From IMG/VR virus record IMGVR_UViG_3300045973_001026, positions 1 through 24,951 of that record: a stretch of DNA of 24,951 nt. One strand, given 5' to 3'. A model generated the notes under the pieces. That model was not told the origin of the DNA. It saw only the letters and a program-made list of their open reading frames with translations, and made no database searches. Both the position numbers and the translations under genes were made by a program. Shown piece after piece: positions 147-16,664 of this stretch. This DNA comes from a virus. Numbering within the stretch: position 1 is the first letter of the stretch; each line of letters starts with the position of its first letter.

Positions 147-1604
147 ATGGTGATTCAAGATTCACTTACCGGTAGGCCGATGCTGGCGACCAACGGCGGG
201 CATATTTCCCGCTTTACGGAAACGCTGGAATGGGGTTACCGCCTCGCTGAGACGCCCGTGGGCATCTCGTCAAACAACAGCTCCAAAGGTCTCTGGGAAG
301 CCAAAGGCTGGAAAGAGTTCGTTCAACACATGCCCGATCACAAGAAGGCGTATACAGCAATCATGCTGGAAAACTGCCGCTCTCGTTTCGGTCAACTCGA
401 CGAAGTCACTCGTACCACGTCACTTGGAACATTCGATAAATGGATTTTTCCAATCATCGCCAACATGAGCGAGAACGACGTGATTGATCAGTTGGTGGCC
501 CTCCAGCCTATGGCCGGACCCGTCAGCCAGATCGTTTACATGGACATCGTCACCGGCAAGCGCAAAGGTCGCACCCCGGCTGGCAGCCCAATGTGGCGTG
601 CCTTGCAGGGCGCTGTGGATCGCGACGATGACGGCGATGAATTGGTCCAGGACGAAACTGGCAGTCTCGCTGGCAACGCTGGTCAGTTGGAATGGTTCCC
701 GCTTCGCGCTGGCACCATCACCCTGACGGTTGGCAATGACACCACGACTGATGACAGCAACGGCAACATCCTGCCTGCTGGCGCAATCACCGGTGGCACG
801 ATCAACTACGTCACTGGCGTGATCACCATCACTGGTGTGTCGGCTACTGCGGCGTTCAATGCGACCTACGCGTTCAACGCGGAAGGCAACCTGAACATCC
901 AGGACTACGAGATGAAGCTCAGCTCCACTCCCGTCACTGCTAAGGTCATGAAGCTGAAGACTCTGTGGTCTGAGGAAGCGGACCAGAACCTCCAGGCGAT
1001 GTATAACATCAAGGCGGAGAGCGTGTTGCTCAACGCGTTGACGAATGCGTTGACCTACCAGAAACACCGCCAGGTCATTTATGATCTGCGTGCTCGTGCG
1101 GACGCTGGCTTCGTCGTGTGGGATGCGAATGCTCCTACTGGCGTGAACTACCAGACCCACAAGTTCTCGATCATCGACGCGTTTGAAACCGCAAGCAACT
1201 TCATCTTCGGTGGCACCAACATGGTGGCCGGAAACTGGTTGCTCCTCGGTCTCCAGGCGGCGACTGTCGTGGCCACCCTCCCTCAGTTCGTTGCGAAGAA
1301 CAACCGGACTCAGATGCAGGGCGTGACCTACTTGGGCGACCTCGGCAACAAGAAGGTGTTTGTTGACCCGCACTATCCCGTCAACGAGTGGTTGGTCGGA
1401 CACAAAGCTGACGCGTTTTTAAGCACGGGCTACGTTTTGGCTGAATACCAGAAGTTATACACAACTCCCGACGTTGTGCTGCCGGACTTTGTCCATCAAC
1501 GTGGATTCGCTACGAGCTTTGCTCGTAAGATGGTGAACAGCAAGATGTTTGCCAGGGGTCTTATTACGTCCGCAGCGACCAGCTTCGGTTCCGTCATCGG
1601 TTAA
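147..1604 (+). CDS. Major capsid protein, T4 gp23-like
   Basis: A 485-residue protein that should form the capsid shell. The segment around residues 95-130 (FDKWIFPIIA, then VALQPMAGPVSQIVYMD) matches the gp23 family signature in which an FP element is followed by VSVQPM-GP and a YMD/YLR strand. Residues about 200-250 look like a beta-rich insertion. The C-terminal third has the conserved QTHKFSIIDAFETASNFI and KKVFVDPHYPVNE blocks. T4-like capsid proteins lose an N-terminal propeptide at (L/I)xE; L33-A34-E35 is a candidate site, which is inference. The ATG at 147 follows an A-rich leader with no Shine-Dalgarno. A strong hairpin terminator follows. A truncated homologue is encoded at 6717-7223 on the other strand. 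The family call is confident; exact equivalence to gp23 rests on motifs only. Confidence 0.88.
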   Translation: MVIQDSLTGRPMLATNGGHISRFTETLEWGYRLAETPVGISSNNSSKGLWEAKGWKEFVQHMPDHKKAYTAIMLENCRSRFGQLDEVTRTTSLGTFDKWIFPIIANMSENDVIDQLVALQPMAGPVSQIVYMDIVTGKRKGRTPAGSPMWRALQGAVDRDDDGDELVQDETGSLAGNAGQLEWFPLRAGTITLTVGNDTTTDDSNGNILPAGAITGGTINYVTGVITITGVSATAAFNATYAFNAEGNLNIQDYEMKLSSTPVTAKVMKLKTLWSEEADQNLQAMYNIKAESVLLNALTNALTYQKHRQVIYDLRARADAGFVVWDANAPTGVNYQTHKFSIIDAFETASNFIFGGTNMVAGNWLLLGLQAATVVATLPQFVAKNNRTQMQGVTYLGDLGNKKVFVDPHYPVNEWLVGHKADAFLSTGYVLAEYQKLYTTPDVVLPDFVHQRGFATSFARKMVNSKMFARGLITSAATSFGSVIG

Positions 1605-1636
1605 GCCTAATAAGCTCATACTGAGACACTTACACT

Positions 1637-1667
1637 CCCTCGACTTGAAAAGGTCGAGGGATTTTTA
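1637..1667 (+). terminator. Rho-independent terminator after the capsid gene
   Basis: CCCTCGACTT at 1637-1646 pairs with AGGTCGAGGG at 1651-1660 (one G-U pair) around a GAAA tetraloop, followed by ATTTTTATT. This is a textbook intrinsic terminator 33 bp after the capsid stop codon. It separates the capsid transcript from the endonuclease genes, which have their own promoter. Confidence 0.93.
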
Positions 1668-1728
1668 TTGCTCTAATTCCGGTATGGTCAATTTCAAAAT
1701 GTATTTTGATTATTTTTAAGTATGACGG

Positions 1729-1757
1729 TTGACATTGGTATCAAATCCGTGTATAGT
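1729..1757 (+). promoter_or_regulatory. Sigma-70-like promoter for the GIY-YIG gene
   Basis: A perfect -35 box TTGACA (1729-1734) is followed by exactly 17 bp and then TATAGT (1752-1757). The ATG at 1764 begins 6 bp after the -10 box, so the predicted transcript starts at or next to the start codon (leaderless). This also argues against the in-frame upstream ATG at 1722, which lies before the -35 box. Confidence 0.8.
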
Positions 1758-1763
1758 CATTAC

Positions 1764-2918
1764 ATGAATATGAAATATACGGTTGAAGACCTGGTTTCTA
1801 GTGCTAAAAGATACGCTACGATGTCCGAATGGAAGCGCTGCGAACCTTCAAAGCATACATGTGCATACAGAAGAGGGATTCTGCCTGAAATCAAAGTATT
1901 TTTAGCCCACAGTCCGGTTGGGTCTGTTTCCGTTTACTCTAAAGAGTTTCTCATAGCTGACGCTCGTCGATACTCTACCAGATTGGAGTGGAAACAAGCT
2001 GGAAAAGAACTTATTAAACAAGGCAAGGTCAGTCCATATAACGCTGCGATAAAATACGGCAAAGAGTTTTACAGCACTTATTGTCCGCACATGGAAGTGC
2101 GACACCGTTGGACTGACGATGAAATTGCTACTGTTGCCTTGCAGTATCAACACAAAGGTGACTGGAAGAGGTCGCCCAACTCCAGGCATAGCGCGGCCTA
2201 CCAGGTAGCTTTGACTCGCCCGTATCTGTTTGATAAAGCAACGACTCACATGGTCCCTAAGGCCAGCCCTTATTCAGGAGACTACGTGATCTACGTGTTT
2301 GAGTTTTCTGACCGCGCTGCTTACGTGGGTCTCACTTTCAGGCCTGAGCACCGGTATGCCCAACACTTGATGAAAGGACCTGTGTTCGAGCGTATCAAGG
2401 TGTGCCCTGATTATGCGCACAAAATACTGGCCAGTGGTATCGACGACCCTCTTCTCGTCATCGAGGCTGAAAAGCAGTGGATCGAGAAGTACAGGACTGA
2501 AGGCTGGAACGTGCTGAACACCTCAGACGGCGGTAGCCTGGGTACCGTGGAAATCAAGTGGACCAAGGAAGAAGTGATTGCAGAGGCTCAGAAGTATTCC
2601 ACAAAGCAAGACTGGATCGACGGCAGTCAGAGGTCCTATCGGTTGGCCCGCCTTGAAGGCTGGTTCGAGGAGGCGGCTGCCCACATGCCTGACCGCGTGC
2701 TCGGCGTAGGATTAGGCTTGAAAAGGACGGATGAAGCTAAAGAGAAGATGCGCCAGGCCAAGCTCGGCAAGCCTCAGACTCCCGAGGCTCGCGCAGCGCG
2801 ATCTGCTGCAATCAAGAAGTGGTGGGCTGCTCGACGACTATCTTCCGAAACGTGTCACAAATCCACCGGCACTGATCAGACCTCCAGGAATATCGCATCA
2901 ACTCCAGTCTGCGAATAA
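1764..2918 (+). CDS. GIY-YIG endonuclease with WK repeats and NUMOD3-like tail
   Basis: A 384-residue probable free-standing homing endonuclease. The GIY-YIG nuclease domain spans about residues 172-250: VIYVFEF, then YVGLTF with an R/H-rich helix, a glutamate-containing IEAEKQWIEKY helix, and the closing NVLNTSDGGSLG loop. Four degenerate repeats of the form A-x-x-Y-x-x-x-x-x-W-(K/I) occur near residues 12, 65, 124 and 274; this kind of repeat accompanies phage homing nucleases and probably reads DNA. The tail, about 320-358 (DEAKEKMRQAKLGKPQTPE), looks like NUMOD3. The start at 1764 was chosen over 1722 because the promoter overlaps the intervening codons. It sits between the capsid terminator and another GIY-YIG gene, so it may home into a nearby site such as a capsid-lacking allele of this locus. 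Confidence 0.85.
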   Translation: MNMKYTVEDLVSSAKRYATMSEWKRCEPSKHTCAYRRGILPEIKVFLAHSPVGSVSVYSKEFLIADARRYSTRLEWKQAGKELIKQGKVSPYNAAIKYGKEFYSTYCPHMEVRHRWTDDEIATVALQYQHKGDWKRSPNSRHSAAYQVALTRPYLFDKATTHMVPKASPYSGDYVIYVFEFSDRAAYVGLTFRPEHRYAQHLMKGPVFERIKVCPDYAHKILASGIDDPLLVIEAEKQWIEKYRTEGWNVLNTSDGGSLGTVEIKWTKEEVIAEAQKYSTKQDWIDGSQRSYRLARLEGWFEEAAAHMPDRVLGVGLGLKRTDEAKEKMRQAKLGKPQTPEARAARSAAIKKWWAARRLSSETCHKSTGTDQTSRNIASTPVCE

Positions 2919-2927
2919 AGCACCTTT

Positions 2928-5207
2928 ATGTTTTACAGTTACGCTATCTGTTTGGGCGATACGCCCTACTACTACGGTTTTGGTTCTAGTGACTACGGAG
3001 ACGGTCGTGGTCGTATAGAACAACACCAGGTTAAATTGCGCATGGCTTCAAACGGAAGTTTTACGCATAGCCATCTTTATCACAGTCTTCAGACGCTGTC
3101 TGACCGTCTCAAATTGCCGATCACGTTTAGAAAATATTACGAAGGAGACTCAGAAATGGAGGCCCTCTCGTCTGAGTCAGACCTCATCGAAAATCATTCT
3201 AAGGCGTATGCTACACCTATTATAAACAGGAGAGTTGGCGGAAAAGTGGTCAGTGAGGACACCAGTCTCAAAGTTTTCAACATGACTGTTCCCGAGGATG
3301 GGTACGAGATGTGGAAGCACAAATGGAAATTAAAGCTCCATGAACGAAAGCTCAGGAAGCTACACCTGTTCGGCTTAGCAGATAAGTTCGCAGAAAAGTA
3401 CAAAGAGCTGAAAGTGCTGACCACTGGGAAAGTGAATGCCACTTTGGCGGTTCAGCGAGCAACTCGCCTTGCACTTAAAAGAGGATACACGGACATTGCA
3501 GACAGTCTCTCTATTTCCAGAGCGGCAAGCATGACGCTAGAAGAACACAGAGAGCACGCGACATTAGCTTTAGAAACTATCAGGATGAGAGAACTCGTAG
3601 CCCAACCGGTGCCAGAAGACCCTCGCGCTGTTCAGGACTACATGGAAAAGCTGAAATACAACGAGGACAGATACACCAATCTAGGAATGACCCCGCTGGC
3701 ACACGCGGTTTCAAAGCACCTCTTAGCTATCCGAAAGACGTGTCTCGTGAGAGGCGTCAAGTGCCTTAAAACCAACGCCAGCATTATCAGTGATCTCCAA
3801 ACTCAACCTGACCTAGCACTCCTCCCCTACGCGGAGCTGGCTAAGAAATTCGGCATTACGGTTGCAAACATGGTCCGGCTCGTGCGCCTTGCTGGAGTTG
3901 AAAAGCAGAATGCCAAGTCCATTGCGAAGGATAAGTCTAAGGCTGAGTTCATCGCGGATCCTCTCGTGGCCACCGACTGGGCAGCGGCAGGCGTAAAGCA
4001 CGGTCTCAGCCGGATGACGGCTTACCGTTATGCTAAGGAGTCTGATTTGATCACCGACCGAAGGAAGAAACCCGTCATACCCACCAAACAGGGGCCTGTG
4101 CAAGCCACCCCTATGCCGCCTGCTGCACCTTCCGTAGAGGCAGAGGTAGATTGCGACGGATTAGAGGACGAAGAATCAGAAAATGAGAAATTTGACCAGA
4201 TGCTTGAGGAGTGCCCCACCCTGAAGCAGTTTGAAGTTTACGACTTCGGCGGTGCAGCACCTGAAGAGCCAAGCCATGTGCCTAAACAGAGGCAGAAACT
4301 CGCGCCTCCTCCCAAGCCCGTCACTGTTCCCGGCAAGTGCCATCAGCGTGTGATTCGTGAGAACACCCGCGAGGAGGACATCGCCAAACTGACTCCAGTC
4401 CTCGGCGATCTCAGCGCTCTCAAGGCTTCCATGTTTGATCTGGCTTACGAGCGATACACCAAGGAGCATCGCGGATTTATTCGGCGTTACGAGTGGCTTG
4501 GCAACCCTGGCGTGAGCATCAAGTGGTGCTTCACTGCCCGGTACAAGGGCGAGTTAGGCGGAGTTGTGCTGCTGTCAGAACCTTATAACCCTTCAGCTAC
4601 GCAGGCACTGATTGCTCGTGGCGCGTGCGCCGGGTGGACTCCCAAGAACGTGGGATCCATGCTGGTGATGTTCGCCTGCCGACAGATGGCGGCCAACACT
4701 GTCAAGCGCAGTTTCGTGGCGTACGCTGACGAGGAAGCCAACGAGGTAGGCCAGATATATCAAGCGTGCAACTTCAAGTTCCTAGGTTGGAAGGAGGCTT
4801 CTTACCTTGAGAACGAGAATGGAGAGCGCAAATCGGCACAGACGTTCAAGCGCACTTCCAGGATGGTGCCTTGGCTCAAGAAGCAAGGAATAACACTGGC
4901 ACCTGAGTGCTTTACAGCGAAGGGCTACCTGCACTGGAGTGCTATTCCAGCGGACATAAAGGCTTCTATGCGTGCTCACATTGCCAGCGAGAAGGCCAAG
5001 TGCACAACCAAGACCCGGCCCAGGGGCAAGTACCTGCTGTTACTCGGGCCGAACAAGCAGATCACGAAGCAGATGAACGAGGCGTTTAAGGATGAAACCT
5101 TTCCATACCCTCGCAGAGTCGGCTATGAGGCCAAGGCCACCGGCAACGAGGTAGAGCTTGCCCGCCTATCCTCCGAGCGCACTGCACTGGACGCTGGAAC
5201 ACTGTAA
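2928..5207 (+). CDS. Multidomain GIY-YIG / helix-turn-helix / Mom-like protein
   Basis: A 759-residue protein with an unusual domain mix. Residues 1-100 look like a GIY-YIG domain: YSYAI, then YYYGFG in place of YVGKG, an R-x-x-QH helix, and ESDLIENH before IINRRVGG, where the E should be the metal ligand. Two helix-turn-helix-like segments lie near residues 300-325 (ELAKKFGITVANMVRLV) and 350-372 (GLSRMTAYRYAKES). An acidic, proline-rich linker follows at about 390-470. Residues about 500-615 resemble the GNAT-fold Mom family that modifies adenine in phage Mu: FIRRYEWLG, a GELGGVVLLSEPYNPSA strand, FVAYADEEANEVGQIYQACNF. The last 100 residues are unassigned. It starts 9 bp after the preceding gene, so the two are probably cotranscribed. 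The nuclease call is fairly firm, the Mom-like call moderate. Confidence 0.65.
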   Translation: MFYSYAICLGDTPYYYGFGSSDYGDGRGRIEQHQVKLRMASNGSFTHSHLYHSLQTLSDRLKLPITFRKYYEGDSEMEALSSESDLIENHSKAYATPIINRRVGGKVVSEDTSLKVFNMTVPEDGYEMWKHKWKLKLHERKLRKLHLFGLADKFAEKYKELKVLTTGKVNATLAVQRATRLALKRGYTDIADSLSISRAASMTLEEHREHATLALETIRMRELVAQPVPEDPRAVQDYMEKLKYNEDRYTNLGMTPLAHAVSKHLLAIRKTCLVRGVKCLKTNASIISDLQTQPDLALLPYAELAKKFGITVANMVRLVRLAGVEKQNAKSIAKDKSKAEFIADPLVATDWAAAGVKHGLSRMTAYRYAKESDLITDRRKKPVIPTKQGPVQATPMPPAAPSVEAEVDCDGLEDEESENEKFDQMLEECPTLKQFEVYDFGGAAPEEPSHVPKQRQKLAPPPKPVTVPGKCHQRVIRENTREEDIAKLTPVLGDLSALKASMFDLAYERYTKEHRGFIRRYEWLGNPGVSIKWCFTARYKGELGGVVLLSEPYNPSATQALIARGACAGWTPKNVGSMLVMFACRQMAANTVKRSFVAYADEEANEVGQIYQACNFKFLGWKEASYLENENGERKSAQTFKRTSRMVPWLKKQGITLAPECFTAKGYLHWSAIPADIKASMRAHIASEKAKCTTKTRPRGKYLLLLGPNKQITKQMNEAFKDETFPYPRRVGYEAKATGNEVELARLSSERTALDAGTL

Positions 5208-5214
5208 CTATAGT
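5187..5214 (+). repeat. 28-bp upstream box, copy 1
   Basis: This stretch immediately before the ATG at 5215 matches 6054-6081, before the ATG at 6082, at 23 of 28 positions without gaps (both begin CTGGACGC and contain ACACTGTAA). The similarity continues into both coding regions (ATGAC...GCACAACG). Copy 1 overlaps the last codons of the preceding gene. It may be a duplicated gene-start module or a regulatory site. TATAGT directly abuts the ATG, too close for a normal -10 box. Confidence 0.6.
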
Positions 5215-5502
5215 ATGACTGACGCACAACGCATCGTAAATCACCTGCTCGAAGCAGAGGGTGCCAATCCTAGCTTCAGGCGTGCATTCCGCCCGCAGGA
5301 CCACAGCTTGACGTACCCTAACAGCGACTATCTGCCATCATGCCCGAAGTGCCATAGCTTACGCGTGGATTTTCCGTCGCACCCGGACGACGCTTTCGAC
5401 TGCATGGACTGTGACCACTCTTGGATGCCGACTCCGAAGCAGGTTGCGAAGATGAAAGCTGGACGAAAAGTAGACCCTTTCTACGGAAGAATAAAGCAAT
5501 GA
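5215..5502 (+). CDS. Tagged zinc-ribbon protein, putative internal head protein
   Basis: A 95-residue protein. It begins MTDAQRIVNHLLEA, the amphipathic N-terminal peptide shared by four other proteins in this window. Residues about 43-72 hold two CxxC pairs (CPKC and CMDC, 22 residues apart), a zinc-ribbon arrangement. The start at 5215 was chosen because the conserved peptide begins there; an in-frame ATG at 5158 lies inside the previous gene. Its stop overlaps the next start as ATGA. The peptide resembles T4 capsid-targeting sequences with a following LLE-A cleavage-like site, so packaging into the head is inferred, not shown. The core function is unknown. Confidence 0.75.
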   Translation: MTDAQRIVNHLLEAEGANPSFRRAFRPQDHSLTYPNSDYLPSCPKCHSLRVDFPSHPDDAFDCMDCDHSWMPTPKQVAKMKAGRKVDPFYGRIKQ

Positions 5503-5822
5503 CCAACGCACAACGCATCGTAAACGCTCTCCTTGAGGCTGGAGCTGCTCGGAATCTAGCCGAGTATCGCTTGCGGCGTGGGCCTATTGAGTTTGTTGTC
5601 TGGAACCCAGATGGAGTGTGGAAAGGCGAGATCATGCGAGTAAGCATGCGCATTAAAGAGGGCGGGTGTGTAGTGTTCATCGGCGATCTTACTCAGAGGC
5701 TTTCAGCACCTCCTATCTTCGACGATCTGCTCCAGCAATCTAGAGTTCGCTACGAGAGCATTTGGATGCCAGATGCTGCTAGACAGGCGCTTTACGCTCA
5801 GAAGCTTCCTGACAACACGTGA
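5499..5822 (+). CDS. Tagged hypothetical protein, putative internal head protein
   Basis: A 107-residue protein starting MTNAQRIVNALLEAG, almost identical in DNA and protein to the start of its neighbour. The ATG overlaps the preceding stop (ATGA), and GGAAGA eleven bases upstream is one of the few Shine-Dalgarno-like sequences in the window. The core (about 20-95) is predicted beta-rich (FVVWNPDGVWKGEIMR, GGCVVFIGD) and unrecognised. The C terminus ALYAQKLPDNT is shared with the tagged metalloprotease-like protein ending YAYAQKLPG. A common head tag and a common tail around different cores suggest modular exchange. Confidence 0.72.
   Translation: MTNAQRIVNALLEAGAARNLAEYRLRRGPIEFVVWNPDGVWKGEIMRVSMRIKEGGCVVFIGDLTQRLSAPPIFDDLLQQSRVRYESIWMPDAARQALYAQKLPDNT
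5793..5816 (+). repeat. Repeat encoding the shared C terminus YAQKLP, copy 1
   Basis: TACGCTCAGAAGCTTCCTG followed by ACAAC here is nearly repeated at 6712-6739 (one substitution and a 4-base insertion). Both copies encode the last residues YAQKLP of otherwise different tagged proteins and straddle or approach the stop codon. This could be a recombination junction. Confidence 0.55.
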
Positions 5823-6028
5823 ATTTTATGCACAAGCAGCCAAGCGATACGAGCTACGGAGATCGGATTGATCGACACATCTACGGAATCAAAAACGGGG
5901 CAGATTGCCCGGCTGAGTGGTTTGATGTTGCGATGGCCGCATTCGACAAGTGCGGTATATCTGTGGAAGGCTTGGACAAGATTAAAGATTTAGCGAGCGA
6001 AATCGCGATTGAAGAAGGAATTGACTGA
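5819..6028 (+). CDS. Small acidic hypothetical protein
   Basis: Up to 69 residues. A GTG at 5819 overlaps the previous stop (GTGA); an in-frame ATG at 5828, in the AT-rich context usual for this window, would give 66 residues. The product is acidic with a helical C-terminal half (DKIKDLASEIAIEEGID) and no recognised domain. It lacks the N-terminal tag of the genes on either side. Translational coupling to the previous gene is likely. Confidence 0.6.
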   Translation: MNFMHKQPSDTSYGDRIDRHIYGIKNGADCPAEWFDVAMAAFDKCGISVEGLDKIKDLASEIAIEEGID

Positions 6029-6053
6029 GTCTTGCTTGCTGCACAGACGGCAT

Positions 6054-6081
6054 CTGGACGCCGGTACACTGTAAATAGATT
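6054..6081 (+). repeat. 28-bp upstream box, copy 2
   Basis: Second copy of the box described at 5187-5214. Here it lies in a 53-bp non-coding gap, so its conservation is not explained by coding of an upstream gene. Confidence 0.6.
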
Positions 6082-6735
6082 ATGACAGATGCACAACGTA
6101 TCATACGCGCTCTCCTTGAAGACGTGGTTGTTCCTGACGAGAATCTCGTTGAGGAATACACGGATGCTGTGCTGGAGCTTTTTCGTTGTGCAGCCGAACA
6201 TTATGGATGGGCAAGTGAAAATGGCCCGTACGCCTGGCAAGATAGCTGTGACTACGCAAATGCAAATGCGGACAGAAGTGTGCCAGCATTTATAGGCGAT
6301 ACAGATGCGCAAGGCGGATTCGGATACTATAATCCTAACGATAAAAGTGTAACGATTCAAGTAGCGTACACGGACAATCTTGCTCAGTTATGGGACACTG
6401 ACGAATTCCGAAGCCAGATAAAATCTTACGTTGGCCACGAGCTTATCCATGCGGGGCAGGATGATCATTCAAAAGGCAAGATGCGACAAGCCGATTTACC
6501 TTACGCTGAGAAGCCTTACGAGCTGATGGCTTTTGCAAAAGAGTTCATCGACCTTGTTAAGGCAGACGTGCTCAGCAGATCCTCGAAGACAGTGTCAAGA
6601 GGCAGCCTCAAGGCGAGCGTGATTAAAAAGCTGGCTTCCCTCACCGCGTCTGACCTGCATGCAACTATCCCGCCTAAAAGCCGAAAGCGATTTATTCGTT
6701 ACGCCTACGCTTACGCTCAAAAGCTTCCTGGCTGA
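6082..6735 (+). CDS. Tagged HExxH metalloprotease-like protein
   Basis: A 217-residue protein. Residues 1-13 are the shared tag MTDAQRIIRALLE. The central part carries H119-E-L-I-H123 within YVGHELIHAGQ, the zinc and catalytic motif of many metallopeptidases. Downstream, YAEKPYELMAFAKEF offers E143 or E147 as third zinc ligand, as in gluzincin-like peptidases where P-x-E-x-x-A follows the HExxH helix. The C-terminal region (about 165-217) is basic and ends YAYAQKLPG. Its 3' end overlaps the convergent capsid-fragment gene by 19 bp. If the tag directs packaging, this would be a protease delivered with the DNA or acting inside the head. The motif is clear; activity and packaging are inference. 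Confidence 0.72.
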   Translation: MTDAQRIIRALLEDVVVPDENLVEEYTDAVLELFRCAAEHYGWASENGPYAWQDSCDYANANADRSVPAFIGDTDAQGGFGYYNPNDKSVTIQVAYTDNLAQLWDTDEFRSQIKSYVGHELIHAGQDDHSKGKMRQADLPYAEKPYELMAFAKEFIDLVKADVLSRSSKTVSRGSLKASVIKKLASLTASDLHATIPPKSRKRFIRYAYAYAQKLPG

Positions 6736-6739
6736 CAAC
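6712..6739 (+). repeat. Repeat encoding the shared C terminus YAQKLP, copy 2
   Basis: Second copy of the element at 5793-5816, here lying across the overlapping ends of two convergent genes. Confidence 0.55.
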
Positions 6740-7223
6740 CCCGCGCTGCAAACCACCCCGCCATCTCTGCCTTGGCAATGATGATTACGGCAGTCCTGCC
6801 ACCTGAATTGCAGAGCTTGATCTCGTTCGCAGGCATGCTCGGGTCAAACAGGATCTTGCGGTTCGTCACTTTGCCCACAACCACCAGCCCCCGGTCAGTA
6901 GGCAGCAGGCCTTGTTCATTCGCTTCTTGCAGGACCGTGTGGGGCAGCGTCGTGAAAATAACCCTGCCTTCCCGCCCAGTAATGATTTCCTCACTCTCCT
7001 TGGCATAGTCGGTCTTGATCAGGTTGCTGGCCGTCTCAATGGCGTCAAGCAGCGAGAACTTGTGCGTTTGCCATCCGAGACCTTTAGGAGGCGTCGAGCA
7101 CCAAGCAACTCCAAGCGTCTCCTTTGAACCTGGATGTGAAACAGCATTTCCGTCGATTATTTCATTCATGCTGCCTAGAACTGCCTGCGCCTCACTACGC
7201 ATTCTTTCAGATTTCGTAAACAT
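6717..7223 (-). CDS. Stand-alone major-capsid-protein C-terminal homologue
   Basis: A 168-residue protein homologous to the C-terminal third of the capsid protein at 147-1604. GWQTHKFSLLDAIETASNLI aligns with NYQTHKFSIIDAFETASNFI (14 of 20 identical). NRKILFDPSMPANE aligns with NKKVFVDPHYPVNE, and VIFTTLPHTVLQEAN with VVATLPQFVAKNN. The N-terminal capsid domain is absent. The ATG at 7223 was chosen because earlier in-frame codons overlap the divergent gene and show no capsid similarity. The frame is intact and diverged, which argues for a maintained gene and not a fresh duplicate. It could be a minor head protein, an assembly regulator or a decoy of capsid assembly. It is convergent with the tagged protease gene and divergent from 7281. 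Confidence 0.8.
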   Translation of the reverse strand: MFTKSERMRSEAQAVLGSMNEIIDGNAVSHPGSKETLGVAWCSTPPKGLGWQTHKFSLLDAIETASNLIKTDYAKESEEIITGREGRVIFTTLPHTVLQEANEQGLLPTDRGLVVVGKVTNRKILFDPSMPANEIKLCNSGGRTAVIIIAKAEMAGWFAARGCQPGSF

Positions 7224-7227
7224 TCCA

Positions 7228-7256
7228 TTGACATTCTCACCGTAAAAGCGTAAACT
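7228..7256 (+). promoter_or_regulatory. Sigma-70-like promoter for the 7281 gene
   Basis: TTGACA (7228-7233), a 17-bp spacer and TAAACT (7251-7256) lie in the 57-bp gap between divergent genes. The inverted pair TAAAAG/CTTTTA (7242-7247 and 7254-7259) overlaps the -10 box and could be an operator. The leader to the ATG at 7281 would be about 18 nt. Confidence 0.7.
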
Positions 7257-7280
7257 TTTAACAGTTGAAACAATAACACT

Positions 7281-7604
7281 ATGAGTATCATGACTGTAGC
7301 ACACGCGACAACGGTTAAACCTAAACTTCCACCTAAAGCTGAATCTGAAAAGGCTATCAAGGCCTGGGCCGACAAGTTCGGCGATCAATACGGCGGCATG
7401 GGCAATGTGTCCGTGCGCCAGCTGTTGACCGGGCTTAACGAGGCTTTCCCGTTGGGACAGGCAGGCATGGGACCTGACTTCAAGGGTGCCCACAACATCA
7501 CGCTGGAAGTGGACAGCGCCATAAGGGTGAACATCTGGTGGGGCGGTCGTGCCTGGTACGCTGACTTCAAAGAGTGCCTATGCTCCTCCAACTCAAAGGT
7601 CTAG
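7281..7604 (+). CDS. Small phage protein with IWWGG motif, copy 1
   Basis: A 107-residue protein of unknown function. Its C-terminal half, PLGQAGMGPDFKGAHNITLE...VNIWWGGRAW, closely matches the protein at 11204-11518 (PLDQAGMGPDFKSTHSIT...AGIWWGGHVW), so the two are paralogues with different N-terminal parts. The N-terminal 35 residues are basic and alanine/lysine-rich. It is first in a long plus-strand run and has a good promoter. Its end overlaps the start of a 48-codon ORF. Confidence 0.8.
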   Translation: MSIMTVAHATTVKPKLPPKAESEKAIKAWADKFGDQYGGMGNVSVRQLLTGLNEAFPLGQAGMGPDFKGAHNITLEVDSAIRVNIWWGGRAWYADFKECLCSSNSKV

Positions 7605-7726
7605 TCAAAGCTCGCTACATCTCCTTCCTGGACAGCTTTGTCCGGGTGAACGGCGGGCGACAGCCACAGGCTAAGGATCGCCATGAAGCTTACGTGTGCG
7701 CGTGCGCAGGCACTAGCCATCCATGA
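7580..7726 (+). CDS. Small hypothetical protein (48 aa)
   Basis: ATG at 7580 to TGA at 7724-7726 gives 48 residues starting MLLQLKGLVKARYISF and ending with a Cys-containing tail (YVCACAGTSHP). It overlaps the end of the previous gene by 25 bp and otherwise fills the only gap before 7754. The product is basic and unrecognised. Support is only the open frame and its fit in the gap. Confidence 0.4.
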   Translation: MLLQLKGLVKARYISFLDSFVRVNGGRQPQAKDRHEAYVCACAGTSHP

Positions 7727-7753
7727 AGGTCTAGCTGGTAACACTTTACGATT

Positions 7754-8053
7754 ATGGAAAGGACAAAATTTACAGCCTGGATCACGTCTCACGCGCTTAC
7801 AACCGGCATCGTGAAGACGAAGGTGCTACCTGTATTCGACTGGAGCAAGGGAGCGGTTCAGCTTGTGCTGCCCAGATTTCCTCAGTTCGCACGCGGAGAA
7901 GGCAAGCAATGGCACCGCACAGAAGGAAGTGCTCTTTTGATGGCAGAGAAGATGCGGATGCGCGAGATAGCCCGCCTGAAGGCGCAGCTCCACCGGCTTG
8001 AAAACTACAAGGTTAAGGTAATAACTGACCGCGAGCTTTGGGCAGCACAATAA
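7754..8053 (+). CDS. Hypothetical protein, tandem paralogue 1
   Basis: A 99-residue protein starting MERTKFTAWITSHALTTG. It is a tandem paralogue of the next gene, which starts MEETTFTAWLTSRALTSG. Both share a central K-QWHRT / R-DWHRT block followed by an alanine-rich helix with regularly spaced basic residues (about 63-90, possible coiled coil). The start context ACGATTATG recurs before the next gene and before 22489. No Shine-Dalgarno. Function unknown. Confidence 0.78.
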   Translation: MERTKFTAWITSHALTTGIVKTKVLPVFDWSKGAVQLVLPRFPQFARGEGKQWHRTEGSALLMAEKMRMREIARLKAQLHRLENYKVKVITDRELWAAQ

Positions 8054-8059
8054 ACGATT

Positions 8060-8335
8060 ATGGAAGAAACAACATTTACAGCGTGGCTCACGTCAAGAGC
8101 CTTGACATCCGGCACCATAAAAGCAGAGGCCAGATTCTGGTCTAAATCCACGAGTAGCATGATTGTAGCTGATTCACCTGGGTACACTCACTACGCACAG
8201 AAAGAGGGCCGAGACTGGCACCGTACCCTTCCAGGTGCGCTCGCTAGAGCAGAGGTGATGCGGGCCGCCAAGATCAGGAGCCTTGAGAAGCAAGCCGCCA
8301 AGTTCAAGGCCCTCAAGATAAAGGTGTCGGAATAG
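8060..8335 (+). CDS. Hypothetical protein, tandem paralogue 2
   Basis: A 91-residue paralogue of the preceding gene, beginning 6 bp after its stop. Shared elements are the FTAW-TS-ALT-G start, the DWHRT block near residue 55 and a C-terminal charged helix (RAAKIRSLEKQAAKFKALK). The pair probably arose by tandem duplication and then diverged. Function unknown. Confidence 0.78.
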   Translation: MEETTFTAWLTSRALTSGTIKAEARFWSKSTSSMIVADSPGYTHYAQKEGRDWHRTLPGALARAEVMRAAKIRSLEKQAAKFKALKIKVSE

Positions 8336-8367
8336 CGTTCTAATTTACGGTCAACTTAGATAGCACA

Positions 8368-8622
8368 ATGACTTACCGCACTAAATTTTGGCTGGCTTAC
8401 ACAGTCACGGCAGTGATAGCACTTATCTGCTTCCTCGTGCTGGGATGGATCCTGATCAGTGACGCCAGCACTCTGTGCAAGGGAGCGGCTCTTGCGACCG
8501 GAGTGTATTGCTCAGCCATATTTTATATCCTGTTCACTACGGTGATACCGAGGGTAAAGCCTTGGGACTGGAACTGGTGGGAACCATTATTTTATCGTAA
8601 ACACAACAAAACAAAGAAGTAA
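8368..8622 (+). CDS. Small two-helix membrane protein
   Basis: An 84-residue protein with two hydrophobic stretches: about 8-30 (LAYTVTAVIALICFLVLGWI) and about 41-60 (AALATGVYCSAIFYILFTTV). A tryptophan-rich segment (WDWNWWEPLFY) and a basic tail KHNKTKK follow, consistent with an inner-membrane protein with a cytoplasmic C terminus. Its stop lies 1 bp before the next start. No family recognised. Confidence 0.75.
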   Translation: MTYRTKFWLAYTVTAVIALICFLVLGWILISDASTLCKGAALATGVYCSAIFYILFTTVIPRVKPWDWNWWEPLFYRKHNKTKK

Positions 8623-8623
8623 C

Positions 8624-9400
8624 ATGGAAAATCAAAAGTTAGCGAAAGATATCGAGCAAGCCATCAACCGGCATTCAGCCGAGAACGGCAGTGACACCCC
8701 GGACTTCATGCTGGCAGAATACCTGGTAGGCTGCCTGGAGGTGTTCAACAAAACCACCAGGTCCCGTGAGATTTGGTACGGGCGTGGCCGAAAAGCTGTG
8801 CACGGGCCAGTGCCTGCTACTCCCATGGATACTGGTTCACCGACTGTTGCCACCTTTCCTCCAGGGTTCACTGAGTTCAGAGGCCATCCCACGATGACCG
8901 GCACCTTGCCTGTGCACGGTCTATCTCTCATGGATATCGCCGGGGGTAATGCCTGCGTCGGGCCGGTGCCTGCTGCTCCGATGGATCCTGGTTCACTAAC
9001 AGGCGGAGGCACGTACCCTCCTGACGGCGTCGATACAGAAGATGACACTCCCGCTGTTAAACCGTTTTCGGCTGGCCCCAACGAGGTGAGCCAGCTTATT
9101 GACGGCCTGCACAGCCTACTGAAGAAGGTCTCACACGGTCCGTCTGGGTCTGGCGTACGCCCTAGCGTGACTCCTGTTCATTGCCAGGTGTTCGCCCGGT
9201 ATCATACCACAGGCGGTGTACTCTGTGATACCCCGCCTGTTATCGTTGCTGACCACAATGGCATTAAAAAAGCTGTATCCCGAGTGCACGCTGATATCGT
9301 CAACGGCATTACTAAACCCAGCTTTGAAAACGCCACCGATAACGACGATGTTGTCGGGTACTCCATCATCTTGCGAACCATCGCCGAAACGTCTGTGTAA
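8624..9400 (+). CDS. Phage protein with TPDFMLAEYL domain and linker repeats
   Basis: A 258-residue protein in three parts. Residues 1-52 (NRHSAENGSDTPDFMLAEYL...FNKTTRSREIWYGR) resemble a short domain common in phages, whose role I do not know. Residues about 58-150 form a low-complexity Pro/Gly/Thr linker with an imperfect repeat (GPVPATPMDTGSPT and GPVPAAPMDPGSLT). Residues about 175-258 (VHCQVFARYHTTGGVLCD...VVGYSIILRTIAE) match the C-terminal domain of the next gene. The short N-terminal domain occurs elsewhere as a stand-alone protein, so this looks like a fusion. Confidence 0.75.
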   Translation: MENQKLAKDIEQAINRHSAENGSDTPDFMLAEYLVGCLEVFNKTTRSREIWYGRGRKAVHGPVPATPMDTGSPTVATFPPGFTEFRGHPTMTGTLPVHGLSLMDIAGGNACVGPVPAAPMDPGSLTGGGTYPPDGVDTEDDTPAVKPFSAGPNEVSQLIDGLHSLLKKVSHGPSGSGVRPSVTPVHCQVFARYHTTGGVLCDTPPVIVADHNGIKKAVSRVHADIVNGITKPSFENATDNDDVVGYSIILRTIAETSV

Positions 9401-9415
9401 CCTGTTCTTAACCCT

Positions 9416-9904
9416 ATGCAAAACCTATCTGAACTTTCTGGAGAACCTACCGAGGGCGTACCTGCTGCAACGGCGCATGACGCACAAGAGGCGGAAGTCC
9501 CTGCTAACTCAATCGGCAGTTGGGCTGCTCGTATAGACCAGGCGCACGCCGCTGCAAAGGCCAAGGCGGAGAATGAAAAAGCCGTATTCGGAGAAGCCTT
9601 GGCTGCTCTCCTTAGAAGGGCCTCGTCTCCTTCCGGTGCTGGGATCAAGCCTGAAGTTGCACGCCCATGGTATAAGATTTACATCCGCTGGCACGCCGCA
9701 GACAACACCCTCCACGACAGCCACTGCTCAATCCTCACCGATTACGCTGAGATCGAGAATGCGCTCAGTGTCGCGCACTCTTCGGCTAGCTGCCAGTTCG
9801 GACAGGGTAAAACGGACACGTTTGGATTCTTCCATACCGACGATGTGCTTGCCGTGGATGGCTACGTTGTCATCCTCCAGACCATGACTGAAATGGCTTC
9901 TTAA
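9416..9904 (+). CDS. Hypothetical protein sharing a C-terminal domain with 8624
   Basis: A 162-residue protein. The last 80 residues (YKIYIRWHAADNTLHDSHCSIL...VDGYVVILQTMTEM) align with the end of the preceding protein. Its first residues MQNLSELSGEPTEGVP resemble MQNISEISVEPVKGTP at 10063, and the DNA before both ATGs is similar (TTC..CCTATGCAAAAC). The middle is an alanine/lysine-rich helix (about 42-66). Function unknown; a mosaic of segments shared with neighbours. Confidence 0.75.
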   Translation: MQNLSELSGEPTEGVPAATAHDAQEAEVPANSIGSWAARIDQAHAAAKAKAENEKAVFGEALAALLRRASSPSGAGIKPEVARPWYKIYIRWHAADNTLHDSHCSILTDYAEIENALSVAHSSASCQFGQGKTDTFGFFHTDDVLAVDGYVVILQTMTEMAS

Positions 9905-9916
9905 CTCTTGTGCCCT

Positions 9917-10051
9917 ATGCCTTTCCTTGCCGCAATCATCGCCGTAGTGGTGATCTATCAGTTCATTGCTTTCCTCGAAGCGCTCACGTTTTTCGGTGTT
10001 GCCGTGATCGCTTTGATCATTGGCCTAGTCTGCTACGTTCTATTTAGCTGA
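9917..10051 (+). CDS. Very small membrane protein (44 aa)
   Basis: ATG at 9917 to TGA at 10049-10051 encodes 44 residues, almost all hydrophobic: MPFLAAIIAVVVIYQFIAFL, a short EALTFF turn, then GVAVIALIIGLVCYVLF. This gives one or two membrane helices. It starts 12 bp after the previous gene and ends 11 bp before the next, which fits the packing of the region. Such tiny phage membrane proteins can be holin- or superinfection-related, but nothing here shows this. Confidence 0.65.
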   Translation: MPFLAAIIAVVVIYQFIAFLEALTFFGVAVIALIIGLVCYVLFS

Positions 10052-10062
10052 AATGTTCGCCT

Positions 10063-10437
10063 ATGCAAAACATATCTGAAATTTCTGTAGAACCTGTCAA
10101 GGGCACACCGGTGCGCCGATACTTCTTGGACAAGCGCGGCGTGCCTACTCAACGGATGGCTGGCACGTCTGGCAAGGGCCACTATGAGATTGCTCAAGCT
10201 GTTACGGGTGCAGATACCGGAGAACTTTACGGTCAGATGGCCCGGCTTGGATTCGCTCGTGTGCTGGAGACTACTGAGGAGATTCACGTGGAGTGCCGGA
10301 ACTTGACTCGTAAACAGAAGGATTACCTCTTGGTGCGATCCAGAGAAACTGGTCTACCAATCATCCACAACAGCCGTGCATTCGTTGAGAGCAAGGATGC
10401 TCGCGCTTCTGCGGTCGTATCTCACCTTTTACAGTAA
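10063..10437 (+). CDS. Hypothetical protein
   Basis: A 124-residue soluble protein. After a start like that of the 9416 gene, it is predicted mixed alpha/beta (GKGHYEIAQAVTGADTGELYGQMARLGFARVLET), with a basic segment NLTRKQKDYLLVRSRETG near residue 84. The pattern, including an ELYGQMARLGF helix, is seen in small phage proteins of unknown role. It ends 3 bp before the next gene. Confidence 0.75.
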   Translation: MQNISEISVEPVKGTPVRRYFLDKRGVPTQRMAGTSGKGHYEIAQAVTGADTGELYGQMARLGFARVLETTEEIHVECRNLTRKQKDYLLVRSRETGLPIIHNSRAFVESKDARASAVVSHLLQ

Positions 10438-10440
10438 AAT

Positions 10441-10716
10441 ATGAATGCCGAAGAAATTCAAGCCCTTAAAAACTACGCTACTGCGATTAGGGAATACGTA
10501 GATGTCCTGCAAGGGGCGTTGACGAACACTCAAGCCATCGTACACCTCCAGGGTGAACAGATTGACAGCCTTAACAGCCAGGTGAGCTTCCTGTTCTGCC
10601 TCGTTACCTTGCTGACCCTGCTCTATGCTGTGAACGCATATAAGACAACCGGGCGATTGCTCACGAGCAAGGAATGCTTGGATGAGCCTAAACAACACAA
10701 CGATAATACATTATGA
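10441..10716 (+). CDS. Small coiled-coil membrane-anchored protein
   Basis: A 91-residue protein with an N-terminal helix rich in E/A/Q (about 1-48, heptad-like hydrophobics in IVHLQGEQIDSLNSQV), one hydrophobic segment at about 49-68 (SFLFCLVTLLTLLYAV), and a short basic then polar tail. The stop overlaps the next start (ATGA at 10713-10716). This layout is also seen in lysis accessory proteins, but nothing here assigns it. Confidence 0.7.
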   Translation: MNAEEIQALKNYATAIREYVDVLQGALTNTQAIVHLQGEQIDSLNSQVSFLFCLVTLLTLLYAVNAYKTTGRLLTSKECLDEPKQHNDNTL

Positions 10717-10943
10717 TAACATTGGTCGATAAACTTAAAGAATCCGGCTTAAAGCTGAGGCCCGACTCTATTACTCGCGGAATGCCTTTTCCGAGCAAGA
10801 CGCTCCGTAAACGCCATAAGTTAGGAGCTTGCCTTTGCTGTGGAAAGAAGCCGTGCGTGTGCAACGCGTATCTGTACATGCTCTTAGAGCTGTCAGGAAG
10901 CGCGAGCTTAACGCCAGGTCAGCGACAGGTCAGCGACAGGTAG
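10713..10943 (+). CDS. Cys-cluster protein, 5' half of an apparently frameshifted gene
   Basis: A 76-residue ORF beginning at the ATGA overlap. Residues about 40-50 hold a dense cysteine cluster (CLCCGKKPCVC), probably metal-binding. The ORF ends soon after an 11-bp tandem duplication (10916-10937). Removing one repeat unit makes the frame run on through ARGGVIKEMYRV to the stop at 11198-11200, giving one protein of 158 residues. The short product is therefore probably the N-terminal half of a longer protein, truncated by the duplication, unless the duplication is an assembly artefact. Confidence 0.6.
   Translation: MITLVDKLKESGLKLRPDSITRGMPFPSKTLRKRHKLGACLCCGKKPCVCNAYLYMLLELSGSASLTPGQRQVSDR
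10916..10941 (+). repeat. 11-bp tandem duplication causing a frameshift
   Basis: AGGTCAGCGAC occurs at 10916-10926 and again at 10927-10937, followed by a partial AGGT. Eleven is not a multiple of three, and the duplication puts a TAG in frame at 10941-10943. Confidence 0.9.
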
Positions 10944-10966
10944 CCCGTGGCGGCGTGATCAAAGAG

Positions 10967-11200
10967 ATGTACAGAGTGAGATATCTCAAGCGCAGGATGG
11001 AATCCGCGTACGTCCACTTCGAGAGCCATTTGAAGCGGCACCTGCACGTAGGCCTGACCGTCGCTTGGAATCTGGCTGTGCTCAAGGCTGTGAACGAAGA
11101 ATCAAGTCGCCGCCGAGCAGAGGAAGATGACGCGTGCCTCCACTCGTTTCGAGAAGACACACAATCGCGCTGGGAGAGCAGGCGCTCAGGAAAGGTTTAA
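10967..11200 (+). CDS. Basic helical protein, 3' half of an apparently frameshifted gene
   Basis: A 77-residue ORF from ATG 10967 (GTG at 10955 is also possible). It is rich in Arg and His (YLKRRMESAYVHFESHLKRHLH) with a charged C-terminal helix. The frame extends upstream through the tandem duplication and, after removal of one 11-bp unit, fuses with the ORF at 10713. It may be the C-terminal half of that protein or be translated alone by internal initiation. No family recognised. Confidence 0.5.
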   Translation: MYRVRYLKRRMESAYVHFESHLKRHLHVGLTVAWNLAVLKAVNEESSRRRAEEDDACLHSFREDTQSRWESRRSGKV

Positions 11201-11203
11201 TTT

Positions 11204-11518
11204 ATGGGAGACTGGACTGACGAATTTAATGAGTTTGAGCTGAACACCACTCCTCCAGCGGTAGTACTCCAGCAGATGGCCGACATGGAGAAAGAGAAGG
11301 CGCATGTGCAGGCCGTGGCTGATGATCTGGACGACAGAGGCTTTGCAAAGATGACTGTTGCCGATGCCCTGGCCCGGATACATGCCGCGTGCCCGCTAGA
11401 CCAGGCTGGCATGGGTCCTGATTTCAAGAGCACTCACAGCATTACTATGGACAGCAACGGGAACGTGTGCGCTGGCATCTGGTGGGGCGGGCACGTGTGG
11501 CCGATCACCTTTACTTGA
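11204..11518 (+). CDS. Small phage protein with IWWGG motif, copy 2
   Basis: A 104-residue paralogue of the protein at 7281-7604, sharing PL-QAGMGPDFK--H-IT and IWWGG--W in the C-terminal half. The N-terminal half differs: acidic start (MGDWTDEFNEFEL) and a charged helix at about 22-45. It starts 3 bp after the preceding stop; GGAAAGG 10 bases upstream is one of the rare Shine-Dalgarno-like sequences here. Function unknown. Confidence 0.8.
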   Translation: MGDWTDEFNEFELNTTPPAVVLQQMADMEKEKAHVQAVADDLDDRGFAKMTVADALARIHAACPLDQAGMGPDFKSTHSITMDSNGNVCAGIWWGGHVWPITFT

Positions 11519-11524
11519 AAATGT

Positions 11525-12115
11525 ATGAACGACGCCAACTTAAACTTAGACTTGGTCCCGGACGATCTCGGGCCGCCTTACGAGAAGTGTGCTGACTGCG
11601 GCCAGACCTCAAAGACCTGGACGCCAGACGGTCAGATATGTATCTGCCCAGACTGTCACGATAAGAGATCCGCTGCTGATCTCAAGCGTCTACGTGAGCT
11701 TGCCAATGAGCCTGATGCGGCTGCACCCCTGGATAGGGTAGCTCCGCCTCCGTTCAGCCCAGGCGAGTCTCCTATCCGTACCGCTCCTCTGCCTGTTGAA
11801 CCGCCCGGTACTGAATTCGATGTGCGGGTGTATCACCAGGGCTGGCACGGGTCAGGGTGCTTTGCGGAGATGCTGCATGTGACCCCGGAGAATTACGTCA
11901 GGCACACCGATACCGTGATCACTGTGCGCGAGAGCTACCAGGACCAGGACGGCGGTGACCGTATGGGTGAGTCGGACTACTACACTGACCTCGACGCGTA
12001 CGCGGCCCACGAGAACAAATGGTTCAACGAGCACATGGCGGAGGTTACCGAGCGACACGTGCTCACGCGACTACAGATAGCAGAACTGAAGGCAAAATAT
12101 GGCACCAAAGCTTAA
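11525..12115 (+). CDS. Zinc-ribbon hypothetical protein
   Basis: A 196-residue protein. Residues about 22-44 carry CADC and CPDC pairs 16 residues apart, a zinc-ribbon-like knuckle. A proline-rich linker follows (about 65-95), then a domain with acidic loops (FDVRVYHQGWHGSGCFAEM, ESYQDQDGGDRMGESDYYTD) and a C-terminal helix (TRLQIAELKAKYG). Its last 17 bases overlap the next gene. No family recognised. Confidence 0.72.
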   Translation: MNDANLNLDLVPDDLGPPYEKCADCGQTSKTWTPDGQICICPDCHDKRSAADLKRLRELANEPDAAAPLDRVAPPPFSPGESPIRTAPLPVEPPGTEFDVRVYHQGWHGSGCFAEMLHVTPENYVRHTDTVITVRESYQDQDGGDRMGESDYYTDLDAYAAHENKWFNEHMAEVTERHVLTRLQIAELKAKYGTKA

Positions 12116-12374
12116 ACGCTACGACATGAAGAATATTCTGGCTGATCCCACCCAGCGCCGGGATATGATCGCCAGATCGACTCAGTTCGTAATGGCAATC
12201 GAAGGCCAGGACATCACTATGGAAGAGTCGTTGGCCAGCTATGATCGTGTGATGGAGGAGAAGCGCAAGAAAGAGGCTGAAGAAGCTGAAGCTAAGGAGA
12301 GGGCGCGACGGCTGAGACTGAGGACCAGGATCCGGCGGCCTTTCGGACCACTGAAAGCGTCGAAGCACAAATAA
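12099..12374 (+). CDS. Small conserved phage protein (RYDMKNILADPTQRRDMI type)
   Basis: A 91-residue basic protein. The N-terminal part (RYDMKNILADPTQRRDMI...AIEGQDITMEESLASYDRV) matches a short helical domain I associate with many phages, where a KxILADPxxRRxMM block is followed by an EGIxTTxEQAxxAYD block. Its role is unknown. The C-terminal 35 residues are extremely charged (KRKKEAEEAEAKERARRLRLRTRIRR), a likely coiled coil or nucleic-acid-binding tail. It overlaps the upstream gene by 17 bp. Confidence 0.75.
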   Translation: MAPKLKRYDMKNILADPTQRRDMIARSTQFVMAIEGQDITMEESLASYDRVMEEKRKKEAEEAEAKERARRLRLRTRIRRPFGPLKASKHK

Positions 12375-12389
12375 CAGGTTCTTACCTCT

Positions 12390-12866
12390 ATGGAACTAAA
12401 TAGCGTCCACGTAAGCAGCAAGTCCGATGAGTGGGAGACACCCAAGGATTTGTTTGCCAGATACGACACGGTCTATCATTTCAATCTTGACGCTGCGGCT
12501 ACGCGGGATAACGCGATGTGTCAGGCCTTCTTCACGAAAGAGGACGATGCTCTGACGATTGACTGGCATCGGCATGGCAAGAGCGTCTGGCTGAACCCTC
12601 CTTACGGACGCAGCATAGGGAAGTTCGTCAAGAAGGCGTACGAGGAGAGCTTGAAGGGCTGCGTGGTTGTGTGCCTGATCCCGGCCAGGACGGACACGGC
12701 GTATTTCCACAATTACTGCTTGAAGCATGGCCTGATCGAGTTCCTTCGTGGCAGGCTCAAGTTTGTAAACAGGACGTTCCCGAGCTGGCGTGCCGACGGG
12801 AATTTCAAGGTATCGCCAGCACCGTTCCCGTCGTGCATCGTGATATTCGGATCCAAAAGCGAATGA
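12390..12866 (+). CDS. dam: Phage-type DNA N6-adenine methyltransferase
   Basis: A 158-residue protein of the short phage Dam-type family. It has EWETP at 14-18 (the EWxTP motif typical of these enzymes), FNLDAAAT at 31-38 (cofactor region), the catalytic NPPY at 69-72 followed by GR, and the VVVCLIPARTDTAYFH strand and helix. It transfers methyl from S-adenosylmethionine to N6 of adenine, usually in GATC or similar sites, and may protect phage DNA from host nucleases. Length fits the family. A near-perfect palindrome with central GATC overlaps its stop codon. The specificity is not shown by sequence. Confidence 0.88.
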   Translation: MELNSVHVSSKSDEWETPKDLFARYDTVYHFNLDAAATRDNAMCQAFFTKEDDALTIDWHRHGKSVWLNPPYGRSIGKFVKKAYEESLKGCVVVCLIPARTDTAYFHNYCLKHGLIEFLRGRLKFVNRTFPSWRADGNFKVSPAPFPSCIVIFGSKSE

Positions 12867-12880
12867 TCGTTCGCTTTTGG
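12853..12880. promoter_or_regulatory. 28-bp near-perfect palindrome centred on GATC
   Basis: CCAAAAGCGAA (12853-12863) and TTCGCTTTTGG (12870-12880) are exact inverted repeats around TGATCG, so 26 of 28 positions are symmetrical and the centre is GATC (12865-12868). The dam stop codon (12864-12866) lies in the loop. There is no T-run after the stem, so it is a poor intrinsic terminator; it could be a terminator variant, RNA-processing hairpin or methylation-sensitive operator. Confidence 0.7.
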
Positions 12881-12919
12881 AAACTCAGCAGTAAACCTTG
12901 CGTGGTCCGTAATTAGGGT

Positions 12920-13474: not shown

Positions 13475-13475
13475 C

Positions 13476-14021: not shown

Positions 14022-14047
14022 ACATTCCGAGGCTCGTTCTATTTATC

Positions 14048-14142: not shown

Positions 14143-14167
14143 CCCCATTATCCCTCGTATTTAAGCC

Positions 14168-14659: not shown

Positions 14660-14660
14660 C

Positions 14661-15967: not shown

Positions 15968-16080
15968 AATTTCAATACTTCATAAGCTGTAAAATGCAGG
16001 CAGCCCTGACTAGCTTCCTCAAGTAACTTCACCTCAGTTTTAATCAGTCTGCCTGCTGCGGTATTACAACTCCGCCAAAT

Positions 16081-16154: not shown

Positions 16155-16162
16155 TATCTAAA

Positions 16163-16480: not shown

Positions 16481-16486
16481 ATTGAA

Positions 16487-16636: not shown

Positions 16637-16664
16637 TGAACGTCGAGCAGTACCACGAACAAAA

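Follow-up and report, generated by a model that had tools for sequence, protein, structure and literature searches.

A predicted stand-alone HK97-fold A-domain protein encoded beside a Gp23-type major capsid protein in a virus contig

The 24,951-base virus contig analyzed here (referred to as the window, at its full length) has a major capsid protein (MCP) as its first long gene, and encodes in addition a 168-residue protein (Table 1). Sequence comparison and a predicted model indicate that this protein is very probably a free-standing HK97-fold A-domain whose ancestor was a Gp23-type MCP from within the clade. The corresponding ORF lies on the minus strand and is unbroken from its ATG at position 7223 to its stop at 6717. 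At the level of sequence, the fragment is a homologue of the MCP A-domain, yet it is not an MCP, with only residues ~319-421 of the latter being represented.

Table 1. Coordinates of the stand-alone A-domain genes and of associated features (window positions unless a record or locus is given).
Feature	Position	Strand	Basis or remark
Full-length MCP, 485 aa, Gp23 family, paralogue of the fragment	147..1604	(+)	PF07068 E 3e-28; phrog_138 major head protein E 2e-27
MCP gene portion coding for the A-domain, counterpart of the fragment	1104..1475	(+)	Alignment slice
Accessory island with the fragment gene, ~15.8 kb	1605..17381		tblastn of window proteins on L001, L003, L004
Predicted stand-alone capsid A-domain protein gene, 168 aa	6717..7223	(-)	Intact ORF; MCP homology; homologues in three other contigs
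Predicted A-domain proper, residues ~36-142	6798..7118	(-)	hhalign range; AlphaFold model
G011 stand-alone copy, 138 aa from ATG	G011:C1:97468-97785; L040:4930-5346	(-)	Full MCP in same record
G013 stand-alone copy, 175 aa	G013:C1:96562-96876; L041:4955-5482	(-)	Full MCP in same record
G027 stand-alone copy, 145 aa from GTG	G027:C1:154074-154424; L110:5072-5509	(+)	Full MCP in same record

The initial annotation had described an intact ORF of 168 residues with MCP homology, and this was borne out both by BLASTP, which aligned fragment residues 39-134 with residues 323-414 of the window MCP (35% identity, E 2e-16), and by hhalign, in which a profile of the four stand-alone proteins listed in Table 1 matched a profile of 35 MCPs over MCP residues 319-421 (probability 99.5, E 4e-22). 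As a sequence match, the latter is far beyond chance. The count of 14 identical residues out of 20 in the QTHKFS block (NYQTHKFSIIDAFETASNFI vs. GWQTHKFSLLDAIETASNLI) was correct, and the second block is better written as DPxxPxNE (FDPSMPANE vs. VDPHYPVNE), as the leading F of the FDPxxPxNE motif first proposed is not shared, one of the two proteins having VDPHYPVNE. It had also been stated that the fragment covers the C-terminal third of the MCP and lacks the N-terminal domain; the N-terminal parts are indeed missing, but the match is to the internal A-domain, and the C-terminal end of the MCP, from VLAEYQKLYTTP on, is missing too. Thus, the fragment is devoid of the N-arm, the E-loop, the P-domain and VLAEYQKLYTTP, which is invariant among the aligned MCPs and is not kept in the stand-alone copies. 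The shared region extends from [VI]-x-W-x-[A/S]-T past the DPxxPxNE region to the end of the strand after it, with domain limits much alike in all four copies. The TN..GNW segment, invariant in these MCPs, is gone from 4/4 stand-alone copies, and the contact within the capsomer may therefore have changed. Pfam hmmscan gave no PF07068 match to the fragment.

In HK97-fold proteins, the A (axial) domain is located close to the axis of the capsomer (PMC9958956), and facet subunits touch each other through the two main helices of this domain (PMC8346489). Structure prediction of the fragment alone, proposed earlier as a check, modelled the A-domain confidently: in the AlphaFold2 model, block pLDDT was mostly 80-90 over residues 61-150 and under 50 for residues 12-47, and the predicted A-domain elements are helix 52-69, strand 78-82, helix 84-92 and strands 114-119, 122-126 and 134-139. 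The best PDB matches of the model were HK97-fold capsid proteins and 2PK8. Foldseek placed the former on top (P1 head, 9ukm, E 1.4e-3, probability 1.00) and gave a TM by target of 0.65 for 2PK8, while VIA-align scored mycobacteriophage Douge, T4 gp23 and P1 at Z 10.4 each and 2PK8 at Z 7.8 (79/94 residues, rmsd 2.5, 24% identity). Since the alignment supplied to AlphaFold2 was made of the four stand-alone proteins and 28 MCP slices, the fold is no independent proof of homology. The AlphaFold model of the full window MCP was poor (mean pLDDT 51), and a PDB sequence-profile search retrieved no relevant match. In BFVD, where the short matches to the fragment model were 106-155 aa long, Foldseek found A0A2H4IBH4 of Erwinia phage vB_EamM_Y3 (E 8.6e-4, prob 1.00), likely to be Y3_244 (125 aa; L119:1708-2085; KY984068 201708-202085), as identified by its 125-aa length, which no other gene in the inspected tables had. 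Y3_244 has a faint match to phrog_283 major head protein (E 0.4) and no sequence similarity to the window family; going by the model match, it may be another A-domain-only phage protein. Relatives of Y3_244 occur in many ~260 kb Erwinia phages.

We then considered the A-domain-only proteins already described. Family 4 (A-domain) encapsulins are truncated HK97 proteins that retain the A-domain only (structure 2PK8, 94 residues, from Pyrococcus furiosus); their genes (PF08967/DUF1884) are cellular, from Thermococcales and Rhodothermus/Rubricoccus, with the archaeal members in two-gene operons with hydrogenase, OsmC, GAPDH or DeoC and the bacterial ones as orphans, and their self-assembly into facets or shells is unproven (PMC8346489). 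Like them, the window protein is a stand-alone HK97-fold A-domain, with a core of ~100 residues and the other domains lost; unlike them, it is encoded by a phage, beside a full MCP, and its nearest sequence kin are Gp23-type MCPs. Pfam hmmscan found no PF08967 match up to E 0.1 for the 168-aa protein, nor up to E 10 for the longer, 258-aa version of its frame and for the G011 and G013 copies, and no hydrogenase, OsmC, GAPDH or DeoC gene was seen by eye among the ORFs neighbouring the four copies. Because it has no PF08967 match, stands in no enzyme operon and has phage MCPs as sequence kin, we do not file the window protein as a Family 4 encapsulin. The same points, together with the lack of a conserved enzyme gene beside the four copies and the fact that the closest kin are the MCPs of the very same phages, make it quite unlikely that the protein is a phage counterpart of these encapsulins, forming small self-assembled rings or shells around another protein and having no capsid-directed role, even though 2PK8 is its closest stand-alone structural match and shares its architecture, all other domains being lost.

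To determine the distribution of the gene, MCP relatives were gathered from viral contigs, and the fragment, followed by profiles built from fragments, served as query against their whole records (n = 30). Beside a full MCP, 3/30 of the relatives' records hold a further stand-alone A-domain gene, the remaining 27/30 having the MCP alone; carriers amount to 2/6 among records above 190 kb, and all these counts are minimum figures, as records may be incomplete. A search of related phages for the fragment had been put forward in the initial annotation, and its outcome, stand-alone homologues in three independent contigs, led us to reject the reading of the window gene as a gene remnant or the product of an assembly join. 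The four stand-alone proteins are 138-175 aa long. Carrier MCPs share 67-79% identity with the window MCP, and the stand-alone proteins share only 18-35% with one another over the aligned region, so that either the small gene changes far more rapidly than the MCP, or its history in these phages is much longer. In the A-domain tree, whose long branches make its details unsafe, the window copy groups with those of G011 and G013 on a single branch (98/96), the placement of the very divergent G027 copy is unsure, and a single clade of all four copies was not rejected (p-AU 0.33). No stand-alone homologue was found in isolated phages when 50,697 phage records were searched by tblastn with the window, G011 and G013 proteins as queries, where matches were weak (E 0.007 and above) and the inspected ones were full-length MCPs (phiLo, EP_H11), and none was found in plasmids and genome contigs. 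When viral contigs were searched by peptide pattern, the window fragment alone had no match and two members each matched only themselves; the alignment added only full MCPs. As a separate observation, the N-terminus of the G013 member, MNRRDALKAFGFVAIATTA, resembles a twin-arginine signal, which may be due to chance or may represent an export signal.

The window gene had been proposed to be a selected, diverged paralogue and not a fresh copy of the MCP gene. As no homologue is closer than ~40% over the domain, which is too distant for dN/dS, selection was assessed by indirect tests. Stops in frame are absent from 4/4 stand-alone copies. In a neutral simulation that took MCP A-domains to 36% protein identity, 130 codons remained stop-free in 2.4% of the runs, with a mean of 3.5 stops; this simulation included point mutations only, and indels would lower the stop-free share further. 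In addition, the window copy keeps 21/37 of the MCP-invariant columns vs. 12/73 of the variable ones (p 2e-5), and the other three copies keep 16/37, 18/37 and 12/37 vs. 14/73, 15/73 and 9/73 (p 0.003-0.013), retention in variable columns being biased low, since the majority letter is not necessarily ancestral. The common domain limits of the stand-alone copies represent a third test in agreement with selection. Unbroken frames and preferential retention of MCP-invariant columns thus make the stand-alone A-domain genes look as if they are under purifying selection, and the earlier proposal is upheld by the three independent unbroken homologues and by the invariant residues kept in the window copy. 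A functionless, decaying relic of partial MCP duplications would fit the partial length, the patchy presence and the high divergence of the family; it is nevertheless highly improbable, given four unbroken copies vs. a neutral expectation of 2.4% per copy, MCP-invariant sites preferentially kept, domain limits shared by all four, and one old lineage to which three of the copies belong.

Regarding the gene itself, a second in-frame ATG is found at residue 19 (base 7169), and the frame is open further upstream, as far as a GTG at 7493 (258-aa frame). Because the extension to GTG 7493 runs antisense across the 7281-7604 gene, the start is likely to be either ATG 7223 or the residue-19 ATG. At its 3' end, the gene shares 19 bases with the convergent gene 6082-6735. 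The promoter scan revealed one sigma-70-like site, directed at the neighbour gene 7281, and no convincing promoter for the fragment gene; no leader motif common to the stand-alone genes could be settled. The protein encoded by 6082-6735 (+) carries an HExxH motif (GHELIHAGQDD) and a capsid-targeting-like leader, and may be a packaged metalloprotease.

We next turned to the genomic surroundings. In the closest relatives (L001, L003 and L004, with MCPs 88-90% identical to that of the window), only 0.1-1.1 kb separate the MCP gene from the downstream homologue of 17382-17801. The intervening island of the window, which contains the fragment gene, a GIY-YIG endonuclease, a Mom-like gene, a Dam-type methylase and many small ORFs, is absent from them, and the fragment is therefore accessory cargo. 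Moreover, the neighbours of the four copies are all different, with no gene in common: translations read by eye suggest a 5'-nuclease-like and a baseplate-like ORF beside the G011 copy, a helix-turn-helix-like and a small membrane-protein-like ORF beside the G013 copy, and a phosphoglycerate-mutase-like and a PLP-enzyme-like ORF beside the G027 copy. As 27/30 relatives' records lack the gene, contexts differ and the island is missing in the closest relatives, a core structural role is disfavoured, and the fragment is so taken to be an accessory A-domain paralogue and no core vertex protein. The patchy occurrence and rapid change of the gene likewise count against a vertex or size-determining part essential to the phage, as opposed to an accessory function.

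Several other features of the island deserve mention. The GIY-YIG homing-endonuclease-like gene (1722-2918, +; PF01541 E 4.5e-4, phrog_314) directly follows the MCP gene, and a homologue is present at the same place in L007, L008, L012, L019 and L025; the annotation of Bacillus phage SP-15 splits the MCP match into two pieces, with an endonuclease. The gene at 2928-5207 (+) encodes a 759-aa protein with a Mom-like DNA-modification domain toward its C-terminus (PF25680, phrog_1384). Four ORFs, at 5215, 5499, 6082 and 12920 (+), have N-termini of the form M-x(2-3)-[AV]-QRI-x(4)-LLE or close to it (e.g., MTDAQRIIRALLE), which resemble the leaders that target T4 proteins to the capsid and that a gp21-type protease cleaves at (I/L)-x-E, and these ORFs are candidate internal head proteins. 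A looser form of the leader is seen in a GNAT-like protein near 13477 (MTPITFQIISHLLES), and none was found in the ten related loci scanned. Two pairs of small genes (all +) appear paralogous by eye, namely 7281-7604 / 11204-11518, with QAGMGPDFK and IWWGG motifs in both, and 7754-8053 / 8060-8335, alike in starts and layout. Lastly, a tRNA-Gln(ttg) at 16081-16154 adjoins a gene (16163-16480, -) for a 105-aa multi-helix membrane protein that, by eye, looks like a bacterial EamA/small-multidrug-type transporter, possibly host-derived.

The surroundings also bear on whether the fragment could be a minor structural component, e.g., a virion plug or decoration at the hexamer axis or the portal vertex, without interference. 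Its predicted fold is that of the domain lining the capsomer axis, the window copy adjoins genes with capsid-targeting-like leaders, and the G011 copy lies near genes resembling late structural genes (ORFs read by eye). A regular structural part of the capsid would, however, be expected to be more widespread, and the gene is missing from most relatives' contigs, its position is not conserved and its divergence is very fast, which leads us to consider such a component unlikely.

The role that appears most likely for the fragment, in view of its patchy occurrence, island location and rapid evolution, is that of an accessory protein modulating capsid assembly. A capsid-directed mechanism, by which it would modulate or poison the assembly of the phage's own capsid or that of a rival, is proposed tentatively and at somewhat less than an even chance, because retention of the predicted interface helix holds in the window copy and not in G011 or G027: for helix 52-69, the window copy keeps 12/14 conserved sites vs. 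17/52 (p 6e-4, at a 90% threshold), preferential retention is weak in G013 (p 0.03), and it is absent in the other two. In HK97 capsids, A-domain helices pack subunits around the capsomer axis, and the small protein might bind MCP A-domains or form a ring. With neither N-arm, E-loop nor P-domain, it would not extend the lattice, and a lone A-domain would cap, plug or bias capsomers, the outcome being interference with co-infecting related phages or a tuning of the phage's own assembly.

Known capsid paralogues offer partial parallels to such a modulator. Ccm of SaPIbov5, homologous to the capsid protein, redirects the capsids of phi12 (PMC8569155), evidence that paralogues of a capsid protein are able to influence assembly. 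Like the window protein, it is an additional and diverged HK97-fold homologue of a capsid protein (24% identical to the phage CP; PMC8569155) found in a mobile or accessory setting; it differs in having the full HK97 fold (355 residues, with delta domain, N-arm, E-loop, P- and A-domain) and in forming pentamers, whereas the fragment consists of the A-domain only, with P-domain, E-loop and N-arm absent. T4 gp24, too, is paralogous to the Gp23-family MCP of its own phage, with duplication followed by divergence as its presumed origin (PMC9958956), but it is full-length and essential for viability, while the window protein is a single domain missing from most relatives. In T4, A-domain changes of gp23 alter the capsomer type, and gp23 mutations, part of which lie in this domain, enable gp23 to take the place of the vertex protein gp24 (PMC9958956). 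T4 Inh, the prohead protease inhibitor, was rejected as a relative (hhalign vs. the A-domain alignment, probability 0.2; no phrog_1051 match).

Accessory, island-borne, fast-evolving genes are typical of conflict. The fragment might accordingly act as a decoy against an MCP-sensing host defence, binding the sensor without triggering it, and capsid proteins can trigger bacterial immunity directly, as is the case for CapRel-SJ46 (PMC9712102); no sensor of these hosts is, however, known to read the A-domain, and we regard a decoy as very doubtful. Returning to the capsid-directed mechanism, its broader form would be that Gp23-type phages possess a fast-evolving family of stand-alone A-domains serving as capsid-directed weapons or regulators, which enter or cap the capsomers of co-infecting relatives or of their own prohead, and which would be a plausible source of the cellular A-domain encapsulins; taken as a whole, this is speculative and rather unlikely.

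It had been claimed in the initial annotation that nothing like this gene was described. This stands in so far as a word search of the open-access literature, Pfam and PHROGs yielded no description of a phage-encoded A-domain-only protein beside a full MCP, and does not stand for cells, as cellular A-domain-only HK97 proteins are known from archaea and two bacterial genera (PMC8346489). Such proteins had previously been known from cellular genomes, with an unsettled function and an origin thought to be viral, and phages that have a full MCP and a diverged lone A-domain look like an intermediate on the path from virus to cell. Moreover, phages with both proteins constitute a system in which it can be tested whether a lone A-domain binds, caps or poisons capsomers. 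If this were true, the lone A-domain would represent a minimal, portable modulator of capsid assembly, and its gene would add a new type to those by which phages interfere with one another.
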